NCBI GenBank assembly: GCA_945828175.1
Contig: CALZQD010000009.1
Location: 1-15,246, forward strand
Length of the DNA stretch: 15,246 nucleotides
Direction: 5' to 3'
Source: an uncultured Bacteroidales bacterium
GTDB taxonomy: Bacteria > Bacteroidota > Bacteroidia > Bacteroidales > Muribaculaceae
Of this stretch, positions 1,816-15,198 are shown piece after piece. A program made the position numbers and the translations under genes. The notes under the pieces were generated by a model, which worked only from the letters and a program-made list of their open reading frames with translations, searched no databases and was not told where the DNA came from. The stretch's first letter is position 1; each line of letters starts with the position of its first letter.

Positions 1816-3603
1816 TTACATGCGTTCGGGTACCTTTATGCCGAGCAGGGCCATGCCCGAGGCAATGACGCGCGAGGTGGCGTCGCAGAGAGCAAGGCGC
1901 AGCGAGCGCACTGCGTCGTCGCTCTCGCGCAGCACGGGGCAGTCGTGGTAGAACTGGTTGTATTCCTTAGCCAGGTCGTAGACATAGTTGGCGATGAGCG
2001 CGGGCGAGTAACTGCGACCTGCCTCGGCGACGACGCCGGGATATGAGGCGAGGCGCTGAATCAGGGCAATCTCTTTCTCGCAGGGCTCGACGGCCGAGTA
2101 GTCGGCAGCGGCAGTACCGGCCTCGGCGGCACGGCGGAGCACCGAACGAATACGGGCGTAGGTATACTGGATGAAGGGGCCTGTGTTTCCGTTGAAATCA
2201 ATCGATTCCTTGGGGTTGAAGGTCATATTCTTGCGTGGGTCGACCTTGAGCAGGAAGTATTTGAGTGCGCCGAGGCCGACGATTTCGGCGATGGCGTCCA
2301 TCTCTTCGGGGGTGAGGCCGTCGGTCTTGCCGAGCGACTCAGATACCTCGCGGGCTGTGTCGACCATCTCGGCCATGAGGTCGTCGGCGTCAACGACTGT
2401 GCCCTCGCGGCTCTTCATGCGGCCTTCGGGCAGCTCGACCATGCCGTATGAGAAATGGACGAGGTCTTTGCCCCAGCTGAAGCCGAGCTTGTCGAGAAGC
2501 AGCGACAGCACCTGGAAGTGATAGTTCTGCTCGTTGCCGACGACATAGATCATCTTGTCGATGGGATAGTCGCGGAAACGCAGTTTGGCTGTGCCGATAT
2601 CCTGAGTCATGTAGACCGACGTGCCGTCGCTGCGAAGCAACAGCTTGTGGTCGAGGCCGTCGGCTGTGAGGTCGGCCCAGACAGAGCCGTCTTCGCGGCG
2701 ATACATGACGCCTTTATCGAGGCCTTCGAGCACTTTCTCCTTGCCCTCGAGGTAGGTCTCCGATTCGTAGTATATCTTGTCGAAATCAACACCCATGCGA
2801 GCGTATGTCTCGTCGAATCCGGCGTAGACCCATGCGTTCATCATCTCCCAGAGCGAGCGCACCTCGGGGTCTTTGTCTTCCCATCGGCGAAGCATCTCGC
2901 GGGCCTCGAGCATCAGCGGCGAAGCGGCTTCGGCCTCTTCCTTGGTCATGCCTTTTTCCATCAGTTCGGCAACTTCGGCCTTGTAGTGCTTGTCGAACGC
3001 GACATAGCAGTCGCCGATGAGGTGGTCGCCCTTGATGCCGGTCGACTCGGGCGTGGCGCCGTTGAACCATTTCTTCCATGCGAGCATCGACTTGCAGATA
3101 TGTATGCCGCGGTCGTTGACGATGTTGGTCTTGACGACTTTGTTGCCGCAGGCCTTGAGAATCTCCGAGAGGCTGTAGCCCAGGAGTATGTTGCGCAGAT
3201 GGCCGAGGTGGAGGGGCTTGTTGGTGTTGGGCGACGAGTATTCGACCATGACGAGCTTGCTGTCGTCGGTGACGGGGCGGCGGCCGAAGTCCTTGTCGGC
3301 GACGATGCGCTCGAGGACGGTGTTCCAGTAGGTCGGCTCGATGACGATGTTGAGGAAGCCCTTGACGACATTGAAAGCCTTGACGGCCGGCTCGTTGGCG
3401 ACAAGCCACGCGCCGATTTCGTTGCCCACGGCTTCGGGAGCCTTGCGGGCGGCCTTGACCCAGGGGAAGACGACAACGGTGACGTTGCCCTCGAATTCCT
3501 TGCGTGTGGGCTGCGGGCCGACCGATTCGGGAGCTACATCGACATTATAAAGTTCTTTGACAGCCTTTGCCACGGCTGAAGATATGATCTGATCTATCGA
3601 CAT
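1816..3603 (-). CDS. argS: Arginyl-tRNA synthetase
   Basis: A full-length class I aminoacyl-tRNA synthetase of 595 residues that charges tRNA-Arg with arginine using ATP in the cytoplasm. Residues 1-110 are the N-terminal Arg-tRNA synthetase domain (GNVTVVVFPW, VVKGFLNIVI). The HIGH signature is HLGH at 132-135 inside PNTNKPLHLGHLRN, and the KMSKS-equivalent is MKSR at 396-399 (GRMKSREGTVVDADDL). The C-terminal DALR anticodon-binding domain starts near GPFIQYTYARIRS (475-487) and ends with ALLGIKVPERM at the terminus. The ATG at 3601-3603 lies 54 bp downstream of a consensus Bacteroidota promoter. Nothing is truncated. The large opposite-strand open frames over this gene are shadows of its GC-rich codons. 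Confidence 0.98.
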   Translation of the reverse strand: MSIDQIISSAVAKAVKELYNVDVAPESVGPQPTRKEFEGNVTVVVFPWVKAARKAPEAVGNEIGAWLVANEPAVKAFNVVKGFLNIVIEPTYWNTVLERIVADKDFGRRPVTDDSKLVMVEYSSPNTNKPLHLGHLRNILLGYSLSEILKACGNKVVKTNIVNDRGIHICKSMLAWKKWFNGATPESTGIKGDHLIGDCYVAFDKHYKAEVAELMEKGMTKEEAEAASPLMLEAREMLRRWEDKDPEVRSLWEMMNAWVYAGFDETYARMGVDFDKIYYESETYLEGKEKVLEGLDKGVMYRREDGSVWADLTADGLDHKLLLRSDGTSVYMTQDIGTAKLRFRDYPIDKMIYVVGNEQNYHFQVLSLLLDKLGFSWGKDLVHFSYGMVELPEGRMKSREGTVVDADDLMAEMVDTAREVSESLGKTDGLTPEEMDAIAEIVGLGALKYFLLKVDPRKNMTFNPKESIDFNGNTGPFIQYTYARIRSVLRRAAEAGTAAADYSAVEPCEKEIALIQRLASYPGVVAEAGRSYSPALIANYVYDLAKEYNQFYHDCPVLRESDDAVRSLRLALCDATSRVIASGMALLGIKVPERM

Positions 3604-3657
3604 AATTATAAGTTATAACGCTGTTTCAAAATAAAAAGATGAAAACTTTTCAACTTA

Positions 3658-3688
3658 CAAAGATAGCGAAAAAGTTTCAACAGTCAAA
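3658..3688 (-). promoter_or_regulatory. Consensus Bacteroidota promoter for argS
   Basis: On the minus strand a -33 box TTTG (3685-3688), a 19-bp spacer and a -7 box TATCTTTG (3658-3665) match the TTTG/TAnnTTTG consensus exactly. It predicts a leader of roughly 50 nt before the argS ATG. Confidence 0.8.
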
Positions 3689-3714
3689 ATCCATGGCCAA
3701 AAGGGCTACAGACA

Positions 3715-3748
3715 CCCGCTTTCGGGCGAAGAAAGCCGCTTTTTCGCC
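3715..3748. repeat. Tandem overlapping hairpins in the argS / small membrane gene divergent region
   Basis: CCCG-CTTT-CGGG (3715-3726) overlaps a longer stem, GGCGAA (3725-3730) with TTCGCC (3743-3748), which extends inward by an AAA/TTT block. They lie in the leader of the plus-strand small membrane protein gene and could be a 5'-UTR element. No function can be assigned. Confidence 0.4.
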
Positions 3749-3804
3749 GGTCGGGGTAATTTTTCGCAGCAAGATACATCATATGATAAAAACCTTACTT
3801 GATT

Positions 3805-6259: not shown

Positions 6260-7593
6260 ACCCTTTGCCGGCTTGCGAGCCGCTTTTGTTTTTACTGAAT
6301 AGCGTCGGCGTTGAGATTGCCGACTTCGATGCTCCCAGAATCATCGCTCTTGTCATCGCTCTGATGGCGCTTTTTGTCTCGGCTTTTATCTCGGGCAGCG
6401 AAATTGCATGCTTCTCGCTGACTCAGTCGCAGCTCGAAGAACTCGAAGAATCGCCAAAAGGCCGCAACATCGTCAAAATGATGTCTCAGCCCGAAAAGCT
6501 TTTGGCTACGATATTGATTACCAACAATCTCGTCAACGTCACAATCGTCGTGCTCTGTAACTTCGCTCTCGGACCTATCTTCAATACAATGAGTCCGGTG
6601 TGGAGCTTCATCCTTCAGACAGTGCTGCTTACCTTCCTGATTCTGCTCTTCGGCGAGATTCTGCCGAAACTCTACGCCAACAACAATCAGGTCAGATGGG
6701 CCACCTTCGCCTCGGGCGGACTGATGGCCTTCATGAAGATATTCTCTCCGCTGTCGCGCCTGCTCGTCAGCTCGACAAAGGTCGTCAACCGCGTCGTCGC
6801 CAAACAGCCGCAGAGCATCACCCCCGAAGACCTCTCGCAGGCCCTCGAAATAACCGACGTAGCCGCAGGCGATGAAAAAGATATGCTCGAAGGCATTCTC
6901 AAGTTCGGCGACACAACGGCATCCGAGGTCATGACCCCGCGCATCCGCGTCACCGACATCGACTATGAGGCCGGCTTCGACGAAGTCGTCAAAATCGTCA
7001 TCGAGAGCGGCTACTCGCGCCTGCCAGTCTACGAAAACTCGCTCGACACGATAAAGGGCATCCTCTATGCCCGCGACCTGCTGCCATATATCGGCAAGAA
7101 GACCGACGGTTTCAAATGGCAAACCCTTCTGCGCGAGCCGTATTATGTGCCCGAATCGCGCATGATCGACGACCTGCTCGAAGATTTCCGCCAGAAAAAG
7201 ATCCACCTCGCCATCGTCGTCGACGAATTCGGCGGCACCCAAGGCATCGTCACCCTCGAAGACGTGCTCGAGGAAATCGTCGGCGACATCAACGACGAAT
7301 ACGACGAAGAAGAGCAGACCTACAAACGCCTGCGCGACAATACATTCATCTTCGAAGGCCAGACGCTACTGACCGATTTCTTCCGCATCACCGAGCTCAA
7401 CAGCGAGGACTATGAAGATGTCACCGAAGACGCCGAGACCCTCGCCGGCATGCTCCTCGCCATCAAGGGCGACTTCCCCAAAGACAAAGAGCCGCTGGTC
7501 TACGGCCGCTGCCGCTTCCTCGTGCTCGACGTCACCGATCACCGCATCGTCAGCGTCCGCGTAAAGGTAATGCCTGAAAATCAGACAGAATGA
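6250..7593 (+). CDS. gldE: GldE-like CNNM/CBS/CorC-domain membrane protein
   Basis: A 447-residue protein with the layout of the HlyC/CorC (CNNM) family in its Bacteroidota GldE form. It has a short N-terminus, three to four membrane segments (about 30-52, 85-110 and 118-140, with the SGSEIACFSL motif near 48-57), two CBS domains (about 210-345, VMTPRIRVTDID and IVVDEFGGTQGIVTLEDVLEEIVGDI motifs) and a C-terminal CorC_HlyC transporter-associated domain (about 360-440). In gliding Bacteroidota GldE is linked to lipoprotein GldD; in non-gliding gut members the pair is conserved but its role is unclear, with ion transport possible. I use the TTG at 6250: it gives an MDIDPLP start like that of relatives, and no in-frame ATG lies upstream. 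It overlaps gldD by 4 bp. Confidence 0.93.
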   Translation: MDIDPLPACEPLLFLLNSVGVEIADFDAPRIIALVIALMALFVSAFISGSEIACFSLTQSQLEELEESPKGRNIVKMMSQPEKLLATILITNNLVNVTIVVLCNFALGPIFNTMSPVWSFILQTVLLTFLILLFGEILPKLYANNNQVRWATFASGGLMAFMKIFSPLSRLLVSSTKVVNRVVAKQPQSITPEDLSQALEITDVAAGDEKDMLEGILKFGDTTASEVMTPRIRVTDIDYEAGFDEVVKIVIESGYSRLPVYENSLDTIKGILYARDLLPYIGKKTDGFKWQTLLREPYYVPESRMIDDLLEDFRQKKIHLAIVVDEFGGTQGIVTLEDVLEEIVGDINDEYDEEEQTYKRLRDNTFIFEGQTLLTDFFRITELNSEDYEDVTEDAETLAGMLLAIKGDFPKDKEPLVYGRCRFLVLDVTDHRIVSVRVKVMPENQTE

Positions 7594-8168
7594 AACTGCC
7601 GCTTATCTGCGTCATCACGCTCGCGGCCACCTGCGCCACCGCCTGCGGCGGCCACGACGACACGGCGACTCCGCGTCGCCGCGCCTATCAGCGCATCGAG
7701 GCTTACGCTCCCGAATACACTGCCGTCGACAGCCTCCCCGTCAGATTGCTCGTCAACTCGTCGGCTACAGTCTCTCGCCCGCGCCGCGACTGGGTCAACG
7801 TAAGCTATCCGCGTTATAATGCCACCATATTCATCTCTGTCACAGAGGCTGACAGCGGCAATATCGACGACGTCATCGCCAACCGCATCGAGCGTATCGC
7901 CCTCAACGCCGGCGATGTTCGGGTCGACGCACTCGACATCGACAACGGTCGATTCTCATCGACACTCTACGACGCACCGGCAGCCGTTGCGATGCCGCTG
8001 CAGTTCGTCGCCACCGACGGCAAGTCGTTGGTCGTCAGTGCATCGGTATTCTTCGATAATGCCGACCGCATCACATCGCTCGACTCTGTCGCCCCGGCCG
8101 TCGAGGCCATACGCCGCGACCTGACGACAGCACTCGACAGTCTCGACTACCGTTTAGCAAATGATTGA
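7590..8168 (+). CDS. gldD: GldD-like gliding-motility-associated lipoprotein
   Basis: A 192-residue lipoprotein with N-terminal signal MKLPLICVITLAATCATAC; Cys19 before GGHDD is the likely lipidated residue. The mature protein has the GldD pattern: a proline/arginine-rich start (PRRRAYQRIEAY), a central WVNVSYPRYNATIFISV motif, then alternating strands and a C-terminal helix (VEAIRRDLTTALDSLDYRL). Its ATG overlaps the gldE stop (ATGA) and its end overlaps the next gene by 8 bp, so the three genes should be translationally coupled. GldD is required for gliding and for stable type IX secretion-related function in Flavobacterium; whether this organism has that machinery cannot be told from the window. 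Confidence 0.85.
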   Translation: MKLPLICVITLAATCATACGGHDDTATPRRRAYQRIEAYAPEYTAVDSLPVRLLVNSSATVSRPRRDWVNVSYPRYNATIFISVTEADSGNIDDVIANRIERIALNAGDVRVDALDIDNGRFSSTLYDAPAAVAMPLQFVATDGKSLVVSASVFFDNADRITSLDSVAPAVEAIRRDLTTALDSLDYRLAND

Positions 8169-8703
8169 AGTATTTAAATATGACGATATTACGCTCGGCG
8201 TAGCCCCAATTTTAGCAGACGCGGGCCAAACGCGAGCCGAGCGCGAGCGGGCAGCCGTCAGCGTTATCGTCGCTCACTTTTTCGGCTCCAATGCAGGCAT
8301 CGGTCATCGCGAAAGCGGCGCGCCATATCTCGTCGGTCATGAAGATATAAGCCTGACCATCAGCCATAGCCGCGACTATGCCGCAGTAGCTTTTTCAGCA
8401 GTGCGCACCGTCGGCGTCGACATTGAGCAATGGCGCGAACAGCTCGTGCGCGTCGCGCCGCGAGTATTGTCAGAATCCGAAATGGCAGTCTACGGCGCCT
8501 CGTCCGACCTGCTATTGCGCGCCTGGACCATGAAAGAAGCACTCTACAAAGCCGCACTGACTCCCGGCCTCGACTTCAGACGCGACATCGTGCTTTCGCC
8601 CCACCCCACATCAACCGCCGCCAATGTCGCCGGCCGCCCCTTCACAATAATCACAACCCTCCCCCTCGCCACCAACACCCTGACCCTCGTGGCAGAAGGA
8701 TAA
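8161..8703 (+). CDS. 4'-phosphopantetheinyl transferase (Sfp/AcpS superfamily)
   Basis: A 180-residue enzyme that would move the phosphopantetheine arm of coenzyme A onto a serine of an acyl or peptidyl carrier protein. Recognisable motifs are ISLTISHSRDYAAVAFS (about 63-79), the magnesium-binding VGVDIE (about 84-89) and WTMKEALYKA (about 122-131). The substrate-binding C-terminal half continues to the end. It is shorter than Sfp itself, as usual for Bacteroidota members. It overlaps gldD by 8 bp and ends 12 bp from the convergent nucleotidyltransferase gene, with no terminator visible between them. The carrier protein it serves is unknown; no biosynthetic cluster lies nearby, so the housekeeping acyl carrier protein is a likely target. 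Confidence 0.93.
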   Translation: MIEVFKYDDITLGVAPILADAGQTRAERERAAVSVIVAHFFGSNAGIGHRESGAPYLVGHEDISLTISHSRDYAAVAFSAVRTVGVDIEQWREQLVRVAPRVLSESEMAVYGASSDLLLRAWTMKEALYKAALTPGLDFRRDIVLSPHPTSTAANVAGRPFTIITTLPLATNTLTLVAEG

Positions 8704-11557: not shown

Positions 11558-12901
11558 ATGAGAAAATTAAAACTAAGCGTATCGACAGAACGCTTTGAAC
11601 GAAAAGAGGACATTGTTCCTAAGCTGCTCAAGTTTGAGCAAGATTTATTAACAGTGGAGGAATTTGAGGGGAAGGTCAAGGAGGGTTATTGCTTTTGCCA
11701 CTGGTTTAATAGTACCAATGAGATATTCTCGATTGCTGAGAAGACGAAAAGTAATTTTGACTGTGCTAATGTTGTTTTCGTTGATATCGATGATTACGAC
11801 GTGGAGATGAAGGAGTTTGTCAGACATTTGCCGCGTCAGCCGACTGTCTACTATACAACTCCAAGCAACGGGAAGAATGGCAAATATCGGTATAGGCTTT
11901 GCTATCTGTTCAACCAAGACATTAAGGATAGCGAAACATTTACAACTATATATAACGGTATTGTCAACAGTTTCAGAATATCATATCCCGATTATCCCGA
12001 CAAGGATAAATGTGGTAGCGTATCAGCGCAATATATGAACGGCAACGGAAGTCCTAACTGTGAGGTATATTCAACGGATTGCGTTTATACACCTAGCGAT
12101 TTTGGTGTGTCATACACGTCAACCACAGCCTCGACAGATAACTTTAAAGTCAACCCAGCACCTAAAAAGCGGAGCAATAAGGATGAGAGTAAGGAGTTCC
12201 CATTTACTGACTTGGAGTTTAAGGCCGATTTCTTTTCGATGAGTCCTAATGACCTAATAGTAAAATACTACCAGCGATATCACTTCTTTGACAGCACGGA
12301 GTTGGAATATAATGAAGAAGGCTATGCCCTTATCGGTGAGGATTACCGACAGATTTTTCGACGTTGGTATTTAGACATTTCCACAGATGATAAAGGGAGG
12401 GAACATAAAGCGACGGTGTTACGTAAAAGGCGAGATGGGGATAAACGTCGGTATTATATGTATCTGTCGGCATTGATACGAAAACAAATCATGCCTGATA
12501 TTACATTTGAGCATCTGCTTTATAATCTCGTGTGTGAGCGACAATACTTTTATGATAATTCCGACCGCGTACTGACTAACCAATTTTTGATGGAGAAAGC
12601 ACTGACGGTTATAAATACTCCGATAGAGAAAATCTCGCTTGGTTCATATAGAAAGAGACCAAAGTATAAGATAGATCGGGAGTTTTGCCGCAAAAACGGG
12701 ATAAAGCCAGTGGCACTGAGCAATATGGTGCGCTCTAAACTATACACGGAGAAGATTGGCGAATTATATGACTGCAATCTTAGTGTTGCCGAGAACTTAA
12801 AGAATATTCGTTCTCATGGCGTGAAAGTAGGCAAAACTAAGCTCTATCAGTTCTGCAAGGAGATGGGGTTATCGACAAAGCCACATAAGGTAAAAGACTA
12901 A
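11558..12901 (+). CDS. Primase-like (AEP-type) protein with C-terminal helix-turn-helix, mobile-element type
   Basis: A 447-residue protein. The N-terminal 190 residues resemble the archaeo-eukaryotic primase-like fold in replication proteins of mobile elements and in the VirE-N/primase group of Bacteroidales. The hydrophobic strand VVFVDIDDYD (about 71-80) supplies the DxD pair, then PTVYYTTPSNGKNGKYRYRL (about 95-114) gives the middle motif and SVSAQYMNGNGSPNC (about 154-168) the third. A Ser/Thr-rich linker (about 185-210) leads to a basic helical region, and the last 45 residues (SVAENLKNIRSHGVKVGKTKLYQFCKEMG) look like a DNA-binding helix-turn-helix. No helicase domain, mobilisation gene or integrase is present in the window, so it looks like an orphan or remnant of an integrated element. 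The family assignment rests on motifs only. Confidence 0.6.
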   Translation: MRKLKLSVSTERFERKEDIVPKLLKFEQDLLTVEEFEGKVKEGYCFCHWFNSTNEIFSIAEKTKSNFDCANVVFVDIDDYDVEMKEFVRHLPRQPTVYYTTPSNGKNGKYRYRLCYLFNQDIKDSETFTTIYNGIVNSFRISYPDYPDKDKCGSVSAQYMNGNGSPNCEVYSTDCVYTPSDFGVSYTSTTASTDNFKVNPAPKKRSNKDESKEFPFTDLEFKADFFSMSPNDLIVKYYQRYHFFDSTELEYNEEGYALIGEDYRQIFRRWYLDISTDDKGREHKATVLRKRRDGDKRRYYMYLSALIRKQIMPDITFEHLLYNLVCERQYFYDNSDRVLTNQFLMEKALTVINTPIEKISLGSYRKRPKYKIDREFCRKNGIKPVALSNMVRSKLYTEKIGELYDCNLSVAENLKNIRSHGVKVGKTKLYQFCKEMGLSTKPHKVKD

Positions 12902-12910
12902 ATTCAGAAT

Positions 12911-12957
12911 CTACAATTTTTCCGTTTCGGATTAATAATGTAGTAGTGCTTTTTTTA
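12911..12957 (+). terminator. Probable terminator after the primase-like gene
   Basis: CTACA (12911-12915) pairs with TGTAG (12939-12943) around an inner CCG-TTT-CGG hairpin, and a run of eight T residues follows at 12950-12957. The 6-nt gap between stem and T-run is longer than ideal. Confidence 0.55.
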
Positions 12958-12974
12958 TTATTCCGAGGAGGAAA

Positions 12975-13122
12975 AGTCCAATGTTTGTATCAAAGTCGTG
13001 AGTGTATCAATTTAATCTCTGTGGAGGTGTTGATACGCTCCTTTTCATGTGTCATTCTAATCTAAAAGATTACATGGCTCCAACACTGGACTAAAGTTAA
13101 AATCGGCATCGGATTCCCGATT
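12975..13122 (+). ncRNA. Candidate structured RNA with multi-stem fold
   Basis: There is no open frame, but there are long complementary segments. P1: AGTCCA-A-TGTT (12975-12985) pairs with AACA-C-TGGACT (13082-13092), ten pairs around one A-C mismatch. P2: GAGTGTATCA (13000-13009) pairs with TGATACGCTC (13031-13040), ten pairs including one G-U. P3: CATGT (13046-13050) pairs with ACATG (13072-13076), enclosing TAATCT-AAA-AGATTA. P2 and P3 sit side by side inside P1, forming a three-way junction. A further stem AATCGG/CCGATT follows at 13101-13122. The strand is assumed: a plus-strand RNA would read into the leader downstream, while the minus strand folds equally well apart from the G-U pair. 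I compared it by eye with RNase P, tmRNA, 6S, SRP RNA and common riboswitches and saw no match. Confidence 0.5.
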
Positions 13123-13165
13123 CTTGATATTTTGCGTTAATTTTGCAGTGAAATAGCAGCTCAAC

Positions 13166-13197
13166 CTTGCGTGATAAGAAAATTCTTGCTATATTTG
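13166..13197 (+). promoter_or_regulatory. Promoter for the structured leader and SPFH operon
   Basis: The -7 box TATATTTG (13190-13197) is an exact match; the -33 region is CTTG at 13166-13169 with a 20-bp spacer. A second -7-like TAATTTTG occurs at 13138-13145 without a good -33 box. No other promoter is evident before the zinc-ribbon gene. Confidence 0.6.
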
Positions 13198-13202
13198 CAC
13201 CG

Positions 13203-13494
13203 TTATTGGTGTATTGGCTTCGGCCATCACCCAATGACAAGACATATATAGGAAGGTTTTCGCTTCCTCTGACATGTGCAAATCACCACCTTGCAAACAT
13301 CAATAAGTCAGAGATTGCCGAGAATGCTTCTCACGTATCTGCATATCCGTCAAACACGATATACAGCTTACGGTGAGTTGCTATTTCGTGTTATCTGCTT
13401 ATTGAGCCTTGTGGTGAGGCTGCACATGAAGATGATTCTGAAAGTGGCTCACCTTTTTTATATGCCTTGAAGAATACCAATCATTAACCTCACC
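13203..13494 (+). ncRNA. Multi-hairpin leader with attenuator-like terminator
   Basis: Downstream of the promoter come, in order: a stem ATTGG(TG)/(CA)CCAAT capped by TGGC-TTCG-GCCA (13205-13235); AGGAAG/CTTCCT (13250-13268); CTCTGAC/GTCAGAG enclosing TGCAA/TTGCA (13267-13313); GAGAA-TGC-TTCTC (13320-13332); and AGCCT/AGGCT (around 13405-13421). It ends in a segment with two GGTGAG copies (13372-13377, 13413-13418) and two CTCACC copies (13448-13453, 13489-13494). Six T residues follow the first CTCACC (13454-13459), making a terminator that could be formed or broken by choosing partners. No convincing ORF covers the region. It is most likely the untranslated leader of the zinc-ribbon/SPFH operon, or a stand-alone small RNA ending near 13459. 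Confidence 0.5.
13234..13251 (+). CDS. Possible five-residue leader peptide
   Basis: ATG at 13234 reads MTRHI and stops at TAG 13249-13251. It is the first ATG after the predicted transcription start and sits between the first and second hairpins of the leader. So short an ORF can occur by chance; its position is the only support. Confidence 0.2.
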   Translation: MTRHI

Positions 13495-13530
13495 CGACAG
13501 AGCCATAAGGGGAAGAAACCTAGTCCGTTT

Positions 13531-13731
13531 ATGGCAGACCACGAAATTGAAAATCCTTCAAATTATAAGTATCAGTTGACATGTGTGGGATGTGGCTATA
13601 CTATTATGTCTGACAATTTAAATTCGGATGCTATCAAACTATGCCCTAACTGTGGAAATAAGTTTGAGGTTAGGATTGTATCTGCTCCAGAACCTAAATA
13701 TTCAAGAAATAATCCCTATCCTCATAAATAG
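13531..13731 (+). CDS. Small zinc-ribbon protein
   Basis: A 66-residue soluble protein with two CxxC knuckles, CVGC and CPNC, spaced 17 residues apart, the classic zinc-ribbon pattern (LTCVGCGYTIMSD ... IKLCPNCGNKFEVRI). The tail is proline-rich and polar. Zinc ribbons of this kind mediate protein or nucleic-acid contacts; the specific role is unknown. It lies 8 bp before the SPFH gene and is probably translationally linked to it. The Bacillus ydj locus has a similar grouping of a zinc-ribbon protein with an SPFH protein, which supports a joint function at the membrane. It is the first gene after the attenuator-like leader. Confidence 0.75.
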   Translation: MADHEIENPSNYKYQLTCVGCGYTIMSDNLNSDAIKLCPNCGNKFEVRIVSAPEPKYSRNNPYPHK

Positions 13732-13739
13732 CAATAGTT

Positions 13740-14840
13740 ATGGCATTGGTCAACGTTATAAAATGGGAAGCGAACACTAATGAACTTGTTCAAAAGTTCC
13801 CGATTGAAGACCTTAAAGCGGGTTCTCAATTAGTTGTATATCCTAGTCAGACAGCCCTATTTGTTAAAGGCGGTCAAATACTTGATGAGTTTATATGTGG
13901 CACATATACTATCAAGTCTGAAAATATACCTCTATTAAACAAGGTGTTCAACTTTCCGTTTGGTGGCAATTCTCCTTTTCAAGCAGAGGTTTGGTTTGTA
14001 AATCAAGTTTCCTTACTTGATTGTAAATGGGGAACGGCTTCTCCTATTCAGATAGAAGACCCGAAATACGGAGTTATCGTTCCAATCCGCTCTTACGGCC
14101 AGTACGGGTTTAAAGTTGATAAAGCGAGAGTGTTCTTGGAAAGACTCATCGGCAATATGCCAACGTTCTCAACTGATAAGATTGTTTCCTACTTCCGAGG
14201 TGTCATACTTTCCAAACTGACCGTTATAATATCACAGAAACTATATGCCGATAATCTCAGCATCATCAATATCAACTCACATGTCGAGGAAATTGCCGAG
14301 TATGCCAAATCAAAACTTTCGGTAGTTTTTGCTGAATATGGTGTAGAGTTGGAACTGTTTAATGTTATCGCCATCAACGTAAATGAGGAAGACCCAAGTT
14401 TTCAGAAGTTGAAAGATACAAAAGATTCTCTTGCGCGGATAAACATAATGGGCAAAGATAATTATCAGATGGAGCGAAGTTTCAACGTCCTTGACAGCGC
14501 CGCCGAGAACGAGGGTGGAGGCATGATTGGAGCTGCTGTTGGAATTGGTGCTGGCGTAGGAGTTGGCTCACAGATTGGAACGATGGTCAATGACCATATC
14601 AACACTAATCCCTCCACAACACCTCCTGCAATGCCTATCACGCAGTATTTTCTTGGCGTGAACGGTCAACAGCAGGGTCCATTCGACTTTAGTACTGTAA
14701 AGAATATGCTCACATCTCACCAAATCAATGAGACGGCATTGATATGGAGACGTGGAATGGCAAATTGGATGCCAATAGGCGATATGTCCGATTTTAGTGA
14801 TGTTTTGAATAATTGTCCTCCACCATTACCTCCAATGTAA
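13740..14840 (+). CDS. SPFH-domain (YdjI/virion-core-like) protein with C-terminal GYF_2 domain
   Basis: A 366-residue protein. Residues 1-245 fit the SPFH family related to YdjI and the so-called virion core protein: an N-terminal VNVIKWE, the GSQLVVYPSQTALFVKGGQI strand pair (28-47), FGGNSPFQAEVWFVNQ (74-89), IEDPKYGVIVPIRSYGQYGFKV (105-126) and the long FNVIAINVNEEDPSF (207-221) segment. A glycine-rich hydrophobic stretch (261-280, GMIGAAVGIGAGVGVGSQIG) could insert in a membrane. Residues 303-350 are a GYF_2 (DUF4339) domain, YFLGVNGQQQGPFDFSTVKN ... LIWRRGMANWMPI, followed by the proline-rich tail CPPPLPPM. SPFH proteins form large membrane-associated rings, and GYF_2 domains bind proline-rich peptides. 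Its own proline tail might therefore be a ligand for neighbouring subunits; that is inference. Confidence 0.85.
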   Translation: MALVNVIKWEANTNELVQKFPIEDLKAGSQLVVYPSQTALFVKGGQILDEFICGTYTIKSENIPLLNKVFNFPFGGNSPFQAEVWFVNQVSLLDCKWGTASPIQIEDPKYGVIVPIRSYGQYGFKVDKARVFLERLIGNMPTFSTDKIVSYFRGVILSKLTVIISQKLYADNLSIININSHVEEIAEYAKSKLSVVFAEYGVELELFNVIAINVNEEDPSFQKLKDTKDSLARINIMGKDNYQMERSFNVLDSAAENEGGGMIGAAVGIGAGVGVGSQIGTMVNDHINTNPSTTPPAMPITQYFLGVNGQQQGPFDFSTVKNMLTSHQINETALIWRRGMANWMPIGDMSDFSDVLNNCPPPLPPM

Positions 14841-14850
14841 TAGAATCGTC

Positions 14851-15198
14851 ATGAAAAAGAGTATAATTTTAATAGGAGCAACTCTTGCATTGGTCAACCT
14901 CTTATTTGGGTTGATTATATCAGCGTATGACTATTTTAATCTCGCCATATCGACAATAGTAATTGTGCTGACCTTTCTCATTCTTTTGGCTATTAATGGT
15001 CTAATGAGGTTAAAAGATGGATACAAGGTCAGTCTGAATATTGTGATTCCTGCTATTGGCATAGTTCAGTATTTATTTTCCTTATTCATGCCGAGTCAGT
15101 TCTCAGACAACTGGGGATTGATTGTGATAATCTTCTTGACTGCAATCGAAGCAATCATACTGGTTGCAGCAAATAGTATCTCAACAAAAATAAGATAA
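14851..15198 (+). CDS. Small four-helix membrane protein
   Basis: A 115-residue protein with four hydrophobic segments: about 4-25 (SIILIGATLALVNLLFGLII), 31-50, 62-82 and 89-108. Only short charged loops lie between them (MRLKDGYK). I know no family name. It starts 10 bp after the SPFH gene and is the third gene of that operon, so it may be the integral-membrane partner of the SPFH assembly. Its stop codon (15196-15198) touches the first base of the IS end, so the last residues may have been set by the insertion and the native C-terminus could be longer. Confidence 0.7.
   Translation: MKKSIILIGATLALVNLLFGLIISAYDYFNLAISTIVIVLTFLILLAINGLMRLKDGYKVSLNIVIPAIGIVQYLFSLFMPSQFSDNWGLIVIIFLTAIEAIILVAANSISTKIR

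Follow-up and report, generated by a model that had tools for sequence, protein, structure and literature searches.

A pseudoknotted leader RNA upstream of an SPFH operon probably represents a multi-copy class of putative transcription attenuators in Bacteroidales

The stretch of DNA analyzed here (the window; 15,246 nucleotides, positions 1 to 15,246 of contig CALZQD010000009.1, assembly GCA_945828175.1) derives from an uncultured Bacteroidales bacterium of the Muribaculaceae. Towards its 3' end, a plausible promoter and a long structured leader precede three genes that encode a small zinc-ribbon-like protein, a protein combining SPFH and GYF domains, and a small membrane protein (Table 1). 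Further upstream (positions 11558-12901) lies a 447-aa ORF with no Pfam match above the cut-off, whose C-terminal end has a short match near a related copy of the leader (L018).

Table 1. Elements of the leader RNA in the window and genes of the operon behind it.
Feature	Position	Strand	Basis
Promoter: TTG at 13167 and -7 box TATATTTG at 13190-13197	13167-13197	+	sequence, known consensus
Second -7 box TAATTTTG	13138-13145		sequence
P1 hairpin, presumed transcript start	13201-13239	+	fold
Conserved RNA core (model R1)	13242-13461	+	244 bits with R1; this core was among the sequences used to build the model
P2 hairpin AGGAAG/CTTCCT	13250-13268	+	comparison of relatives
H_A 5' strand CTCTGAC, partner GTCAGAG at 13307-13313	13267-13273	+	covariation
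P3a 5' strand ATGTGC, partner GCACAT at 13422-13427, pseudoknotted with H_A	13274-13279	+	covariation
P3b 5' strand TCACCAC, partner GTGGTGA at 13411-13417	13283-13289	+	compensatory changes between families
P3c 5' strand TCAATAAG, partner CTTATTGA at 13398-13405	13300-13307	+	covariation
P3e 5' strand CTCAC, possible partner GTGAG at 13373-13377	13330-13334	+	fold
P3f apical hairpin CTGCATATC/GATATACAG	13339-13366	+	pairing in relatives
Terminator stem 5' strand GGTGAGTTGC (GGTGAG-1)	13372-13381	+	pairing in relatives
LH hairpin GCC-TTGTGGTGA-GGC	13406-13420	+	covariation
Terminator stem 3' strand GTGGCTCACC and T6 run	13444-13459	+	T-rich end in copies
X 3' strand GAGCCAT, complement of GTGGCTC at 13444-13450	13500-13506	+	comparison
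Gene 1: 66-aa zinc-ribbon-like protein	13531-13731	+	Pfam zinc-ribbon scores, all below cut-off
Gene 2: SPFH (Band_7_1) and GYF_2 protein, 366 aa	13740-14840	+	Pfam
Gene 3: 115-aa membrane protein	14851-15198	+	Pfam DUF5336, below cut-off

The original prediction, made from the letters of the window, described an attenuator built on paired GGTGAG and CTCACC repeats. These repeats are indeed present, with GGTGAG at 13372 and 13413, CTCACC at 13448 and 13489, and a T6 run at 13454-13459. The equal spacing of 41 nt within both pairs, to which attention had been drawn, is also there, but it carries little weight because the second CTCACC (CTCACC-2) is confined to three of nine copies compared (the window, L014 and L015). 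The proposed promoter is plausible, as its -7 box fits the Bacteroides consensus TAnnTTTG and a TTG is found upstream. Two open frames across the leader (starting with TTG, 13167-13376, and with GTG, 13276-13470) have no Pfam match. The RNA from 13153 to 13530 was predicted to fold at -117.9 kcal/mol, compared with -89.0 +/- 5.2 kcal/mol for 100 dinucleotide shuffles (z -5.55), none of which reached its energy, and a chance fold was rejected.

Relatives of the window copy were collected by several searches. In a blastn search with positions 13140-13530, 11 of 297 genomes of the family matched, the source genome included, and two of these matches (L021 and L022) covered the promoter only. A three-part pattern of invariant words was detected in 11 of 397 Muribaculaceae genomes and in none with the reversed control; close relatives are therefore patchy in this family. 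Applied to one genome each of ∼85,000 species, the same pattern yielded 13 stretches, all of them in Bacteroidales. The strict window-type pattern had no match in IMG/VR, and none of the plasmids and phages searched with the window copy matched. Across the relatives the leader is retained in front of differing genes. Past the T-run, conservation is lower among the close relatives, and hairpins of different sequence were seen by eye at the position of P1.

The helices were analyzed further within an alignment of 15 close relatives (A3), scored against a seven-helix pseudoknotted structure. Overall, 93.9% of the helix cells were paired. Double changes were observed in 67 cells, versus 23.2 +/- 3.5 in shuffles that ignore the relatedness of the copies (0/500 as high) and 7-12 in versions of the structure with slid partners; further pair types were not above the shuffles (81/500). 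Changes on both sides were found in 5 of 7 pairs of H_A, 5 of 6 pairs of P3a, all 7 tested pairs of P3c and 2 of 3 pairs of LH, in which every cell was paired. In P3f, 86.7% of the cells were paired and 2 of 8 pairs changed on both sides. The terminator stem (98.7% of cells paired) had no double changes among these relatives, and its 5' strand has other sequences in other families. P3e also lacked double changes, and two of its five pairs were unpaired in 3 and 6 of the 15 relatives. P3b was almost invariant, without changes on both sides. Its pairing is conserved through compensation between families, where the strands read TCACCAC/GTGGTGA, TCTCGCA/TGCGAGA, CTTCGCA/TGCGAAG, CTTCGAC/GTCGAAG, TCTGGAC/GTCCAGA or ATCGCCAA/TTGGCGAT. 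The check that had been proposed with the original prediction, conservation of base pairing in relatives, thus gave a positive outcome for H_A, P3a, P3c and LH, and for P3b between families, not within close relatives.

These comparisons modify the arrangement of the repeats. A terminator had been proposed in which either GGTGAG copy pairs with the first CTCACC. The stem with GGTGAG-1 (GGTGAGTTGC/GTGGCTCACC, followed by the T-run) withstood comparison, whereas GGTGAG-2 has to be given up as a terminator strand: it is part of the loop of LH, which is the 3' strand of P3b and forms a pseudoknot with TCACCAC. CTCACC-2, the suggested alternative partner, is not generally conserved, and a GGTGAG-2/CTCACC-2 switch was rejected on this ground; the conserved alternative would be the GAGCCAT segment further downstream.

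More distant copies were identified with the model R1, built on the close relatives. Among 393 genomes of the order, R1 matched the source genome and five distant genomes; in family f81 it matched 9 of 31 genomes, one of which (L070) was judged false, and in family f109, 6 of 9. Distant copies scored 28-40 bits, L023 reached 45 bits, and a second, diverged copy at L040 scored 22 bits; in the distant copies the order of the helices is retained and the sequences differ. An automated detector, which considers only the complementarity of P3a, P3b, P3c and LH in fixed order, was applied to 34 copies and, in 31 of them, scored higher than every one of 40 shuffles of the copy itself; the copies include near-identical ones and are hence not independent. 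The three failures were L070 (featureless), L076 (truncated) and L071, whose 5' and 3' arms do not match. For L069, and for P3c of five compact copies, the detector chose helices that differ from the reading by eye.

Some individual loci had features of their own. At L071 (619-848) the 5' arm is of one sequence type and the 3' arm of another, as if the copy were recombined, mis-assembled or broken. L017 carries two copies (8115-8333 and 8488-8701) in tandem before one gene cluster, and L040 carries two (3556-3773 and 6360-6577) in one island. By eye, the genes upstream of the RNA at L017, L040 and also L061 appeared Ser/Thr kinase-like.

A second model, R2, was built from seven copies of one genus cluster, themselves distant R1 copies, and describes a more widespread type. 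R2 matched 63 of 393 Bacteroidales genomes at E<=0.02, with five candidates scored per genome and a weakest tail that may be due to chance; outside its source genus, matches ranged down to 8e-52 and 3e-61. In a set of 13 hand-picked genomes (ten matched by R2, three with window-type copies), all 13 contained 1-11 copies each at E<=0.01, and the eight Muribaculaceae among them contained 5-11 copies of the R2 type. No R2-type copy was found in the genome of the window, which is 82% complete. Two Phocaeicola plasmids carry a 69% identical stretch, located 65 nt before a hypothetical gene; these are plasmids of P. dorei and P. vulgatus (L105 and L106; ∼95 and ∼93 kb), in which the RNA and the next gene are shared and the surroundings are nearly identical. 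Beyond the order, R2 matched 1 of 198 genomes of the class, itself a member of Bacteroidales, under strict filters, and 0 of 148 genomes of the phylum, under strict filters and without a positive control, which only suggests that the R2-type RNA is confined to Bacteroidales.

The R2 consensus is strongly conserved outside the arms as well. Covariation in this type was evaluated in alignment A8 (60 distinct rows, compared with 200 shuffles in which kinship is not kept). P3b and H_A, neither of which is part of R2, had 64 and 10 double-change cells, respectively, versus shuffled means of 27.6 (maximum 36) and 2.0 (maximum 6). P3a and P3c are part of R2, and their higher counts lean towards the model. 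In the widespread type, two partners are available to strand GTTGCTCG, the AGCAACG region on its upstream side (helix P3d) and CGAGTAAC on its downstream side (helix T2), a competition analogous to that of P3e and the terminator stem in the window; with 10 double-change cells (mean 3.5, maximum 9) and 11 (mean 5.1, maximum 10), respectively, P3d and T2 are just above chance.

R2 was also compared with 68 sources: it recognized all 61 of the widespread type and none of the seven R1-type ones, to which the window belongs. Both types share one order of elements, namely P1, ACATATA, P2, H_A, P3a-c, P3f, LH, terminator and X, and R1 provides a link (at best 40 bits, 2.4e-5 for one genome). By these R1 matches and the shared architecture, kinship of the two types is likely, although not proven.

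The surroundings of the RNA were analyzed in 83 copies, comprising 61 of the R2 type and 22 of the R1 type; L070, L075, L076 and L035/L043 (contig ends 61 nt past TTGTGGTG) fell outside this set, and L071 was retained. A TAnnTTTG box within 95 nt upstream of the core was found in 70 of the 83 copies, versus 4.5 expected from shuffles. All 83 copies had at least six T in the 12 nt around the end of the model, a count that leans towards the models, of which the T-rich end is a part. The terminator stem, 98.7% paired in A3, is followed by a U-run. In 78 copies an ORF of 60 aa or more began within 260 nt, the first one lying at a median distance of 65.5 nt (quartiles 52-76), and two of the five copies without such an ORF lie near a contig end. 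An ORF start 40-90 nt past the model end was present in 64 of the 83 copies; on the divergent side this held for 6 of 83, and at random anchors for 212 of 1660 (13%). The element is thus a structured, promoter-proximal RNA directly upstream of a same-strand gene, and comparison of sequences establishes its main helices, T-rich end, promoter box and position before a gene.

A further pairing, helix X, would join the 3' strand of the terminator stem to a segment past the T-run, towards the start codon. In a first set, 23 of 30 copies had an X score of at least 15, versus 10.9% of 706 swapped pairs; in the larger set, 57 of 82 copies reached this score, versus 15% of 996 swapped pairs, and 25 of 82 remained below it. 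Taken singly, 4 of 21 copies were significant at p<=0.05, and the window copy had p 0.053 against shuffles. The pairing occurs in different sequences (GTGGCTC/GAGCCAY, GTGACTC/GAGTCAC, GATTCCC/GGGAATC, AGCACCA/TGGTGCT and CAGACTCTC/GAGAGTCTG). Of 14 copies scoring at least 15, 13 have a downstream segment whose end lies 19-30 nt ahead of the start codon, and in the remaining one (L015) no start codon was recognized by the script. In L069, L072 and L073 the segment lies ∼50-57 nt upstream of the start. As helix X is located downstream of the T-run, it is no ordinary antiterminator and can act only after read-through.

In terms of the genes behind the RNA, the proposed tie to an SPFH operon proved not to be specific, as the RNA precedes many unrelated genes. 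SPFH-GYF-like genes were detected behind window-type copies in the window, at L015 (a 43-aa match) and at L019 (as the second gene), and behind the widespread type at L091. Pfam matches above the cut-off included SPFH-GYF (the window and L091), a zinc ribbon (L018), BspA-type leucine-rich repeats (L074 and L078), outer-membrane barrels (L082 and L115), WG repeats (L023), BACON (L085), LptE (L095), a DEAD helicase (L039) and EF-Tu domains (L104). Within one scanned set, 12 of 20 downstream proteins had no Pfam match at E<=0.001; the protein at L121 was scanned as a piece. Ten proteins were compared with PADLOC, in which L039 showed helicase-domain similarity and the remaining matches were weak (E 0.0087 or worse). 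Lipoprotein, secreted or membrane-like proteins were encoded by 44 of 78 first genes, versus 42 of the 152 further ORFs with 200 aa or more at the same loci (Fisher p 2.7e-5), as called by crude, simple sequence rules against a background that contains spurious ORFs. The downstream genes are thus unrelated to each other and enriched in envelope proteins, and no shared function that points to a ligand was found among them.

Four loci of the widespread type (L103, L114, L116 and L130) carry similar helix-turn-helix-like proteins of 70-77 aa behind the RNA, the one at L103 matching HTH_31 below the cut-off. At L104 (382-2378), an IMG/VR contig classed as viral, the RNA precedes the EF-Tu-like gene.

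The arms of the structure are hypervariable. In an alignment of the seven copies of the genus cluster (A6), 23 of 50 columns in the P3 and LH arms were variable, versus 19 of 168 elsewhere (p 4e-7), the arms having been defined after the alignment was seen and the variable loop of P3f (8/14) set apart. In A8 the mean pairwise identity was 0.41 for the 5' strand of P3a versus 0.87 for the terminator stem. The two sides of the arms paired at 87-95% of positions within a copy, versus 56-64% across copies. Selection for orthogonality, by which arms would diverge more within than between genomes, was not supported, since mean arm identity was 0.50 both within (24 pairs) and between genomes (141 pairs). 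For an aptamer, a frozen scaffold with hypervariable, complementary arms is an unusual combination, one that calls for a separate explanation. We regard it as an evenly balanced question whether these RNAs form a multi-copy, pseudoknot-controlled class of Bacteroidales attenuators that places unrelated, often envelope-related accessory genes (SPFH-GYF and zinc-ribbon membrane proteins, lipoproteins, BspA-type repeats and outer-membrane barrels) under a common signal. In the boldest form of this proposal, the P3a, P3b and P3c arms could serve as a key for each copy, addressed singly by a partner RNA.

Taken together, the stretch in the window probably belongs, by a modest measure of confidence, to a new class of pseudoknotted leaders of Bacteroidales that act in cis and attenuate transcription in the manner of riboswitches. 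Transcription would start at ∼13204, near P1, and the 5' arm formed by P3a, P3b and P3c would pair with the 3' arm around LH. The strand GGTGAGTTGC (13372-13381) could then pair upstream in P3e, giving a read-through form, or downstream with GTGGCTCACC, giving a terminator form that ends in U6. In a read-through transcript, GTGGCTC could pair with GAGCCAT, 24 nt before the start codon, and helix X would keep the terminator stem from closing or shape the start region. Some signal, be it a ligand, a protein or an RNA, would shift the balance and thereby set the expression of the zinc-ribbon/SPFH/membrane-protein operon. Of the conditional termination originally proposed, the cis-acting leader and the terminator-like stem were recovered, and competing pairings are plausible; termination in the cell, its conditionality, the role of X and the signal are what we infer from them.

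In all 22 folded copies the predicted energies, in which pseudoknot contributions are left out, were 4.7-21.4 kcal/mol less favorable for the terminator form than for the best fold, and termination may therefore be rare or need help. The 5' strand of the terminator was on average 77% paired before the 3' strand is made. By this calculation the default would tend to be read-through, with termination when a condition stabilizes the other form; the switch would be reversed if the pseudoknot stabilizes the terminator form.

Other explanations account for part of these observations. A stand-alone structured RNA of ∼255 nt, acting in trans from its own promoter and terminator while the gene is expressed by read-through or from a promoter of its own, would fit the discrete -7 box, the 5' hairpin, the T-rich end, the weaker conservation past the T-run among close relatives and the tandem copies before one gene cluster at L017. 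It is nevertheless rather unlikely, given that X links the core to sequence lying 19-30 nt ahead of the start codon (13 of 14 copies scoring at least 15) and that 64 of 83 copies are followed at 40-90 nt by the start of a same-strand ORF; the unrelated downstream genes, too, suit a portable cis-acting element. Less likely again is an effect of the leader on translation or on the stability of the mRNA rather than on termination, with X and the pseudoknot setting ribosome access or protecting the 5' end. X keeps a steadier distance to the start codon than to the T-run (its offsets from the model end vary from 10 to 48 among copies scoring at least 15) and the nested fold favors the non-terminator form, both of which would suit this explanation; yet the terminator stem and T-rich end are retained, and X ends 19-30 nt upstream of the start (∼50-57 nt in the three copies named above), outside the core of the start region.

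We give little credence to a palindromic repetitive or mobile DNA element (MITE- or REP-like) devoid of function as RNA. Its multiple copies, patchy in places and preceding unrelated genes, would be accounted for, but compensatory changes in non-nested helices are not expected of such an element, and neither are the order of promoter, RNA and gene and the complementarity of X. Classical leader-peptide attenuation through the five-codon ORF MTRHI (ATGACAAGACATATATAG) is barely credible. The ORF pointed out in the original prediction does exist (13234-13251); however, several relatives that retain the RNA lack its start codon, and the stretch coincides with the 3' strand of P1 and the conserved ACATATATAG. 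A leader ORF that is not conserved refutes this candidate.

Comparison with known systems places the attenuator class, as proposed here, nearest to riboswitches with intrinsic-terminator platforms, with which it has in common a long structured leader before a gene, candidate competing pairings, a terminator-like stem with a U-run and conserved unpaired stretches. In contrast to riboswitches, the genes behind this RNA share no pathway, X, its second alternative helix, extends beyond the terminator, and no riboswitch of Rfam 15 was found on the element in the scanned loci. The 4227 covariance models of this release gave no match in the window at the gathering threshold; for positions 12900-13760 at E<=5, three hits of snoRNA/scaRNA type were obtained, all far below the cut-off. 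Similarly, in 25 relative loci no family fell on the element at the gathering threshold or at E<=1, the latter scan covering 20 loci of the widespread type. In type III toxin-antitoxin leaders (ToxI-ToxN) a promoter, a structured RNA, a terminator and then a gene follow each other, as they do here; unlike ToxI-ToxN, the genes behind this RNA belong to many unrelated families, and no antitoxin-type repeats were seen in the RNA.

ToxI/ToxN is mentioned in PMC8040213. The Bacteroidales-1 (RF01693) and Bacteroides-1 (RF01694) RNAs, whose accessions are listed in a table of PMC2864571, are likewise conserved structured RNAs of Bacteroidales; both are in Rfam, yet no Rfam family matched the element in the window or the 25 loci. 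FopS, as described in PMC11697453, is a multi-copy sRNA family of Bacteroidaceae with a single-stranded 5' stretch, and is intergenic, antisense or derived from 3' UTRs. Multiple copies, own promoters and a terminator hairpin are common to both; the leader RNA differs, however, in its length (∼255 nt), its pseudoknotted, multi-helix core and its position directly before a gene, and an sRNA of the FopS type, with only a seed and a terminator hairpin, was rejected. The leader RNA is not described in the available portions of PMC8040213, PMC2864571, PMC7366714, PMC11697453 or PMC10994844, the 3161 supplementary candidates of PMC8040213 being outside this comparison.

If the interpretation holds, a widespread class of riboregulators, with no Rfam match in the scanned loci, would be present in a dominant gut order, and would provide a handle on how Bacteroidales switch their accessory surface genes. 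As a separate observation, Cobalamin riboswitches are located within ∼1.5 kb of the RNA in two genomes of family f109 (L054 and L055).
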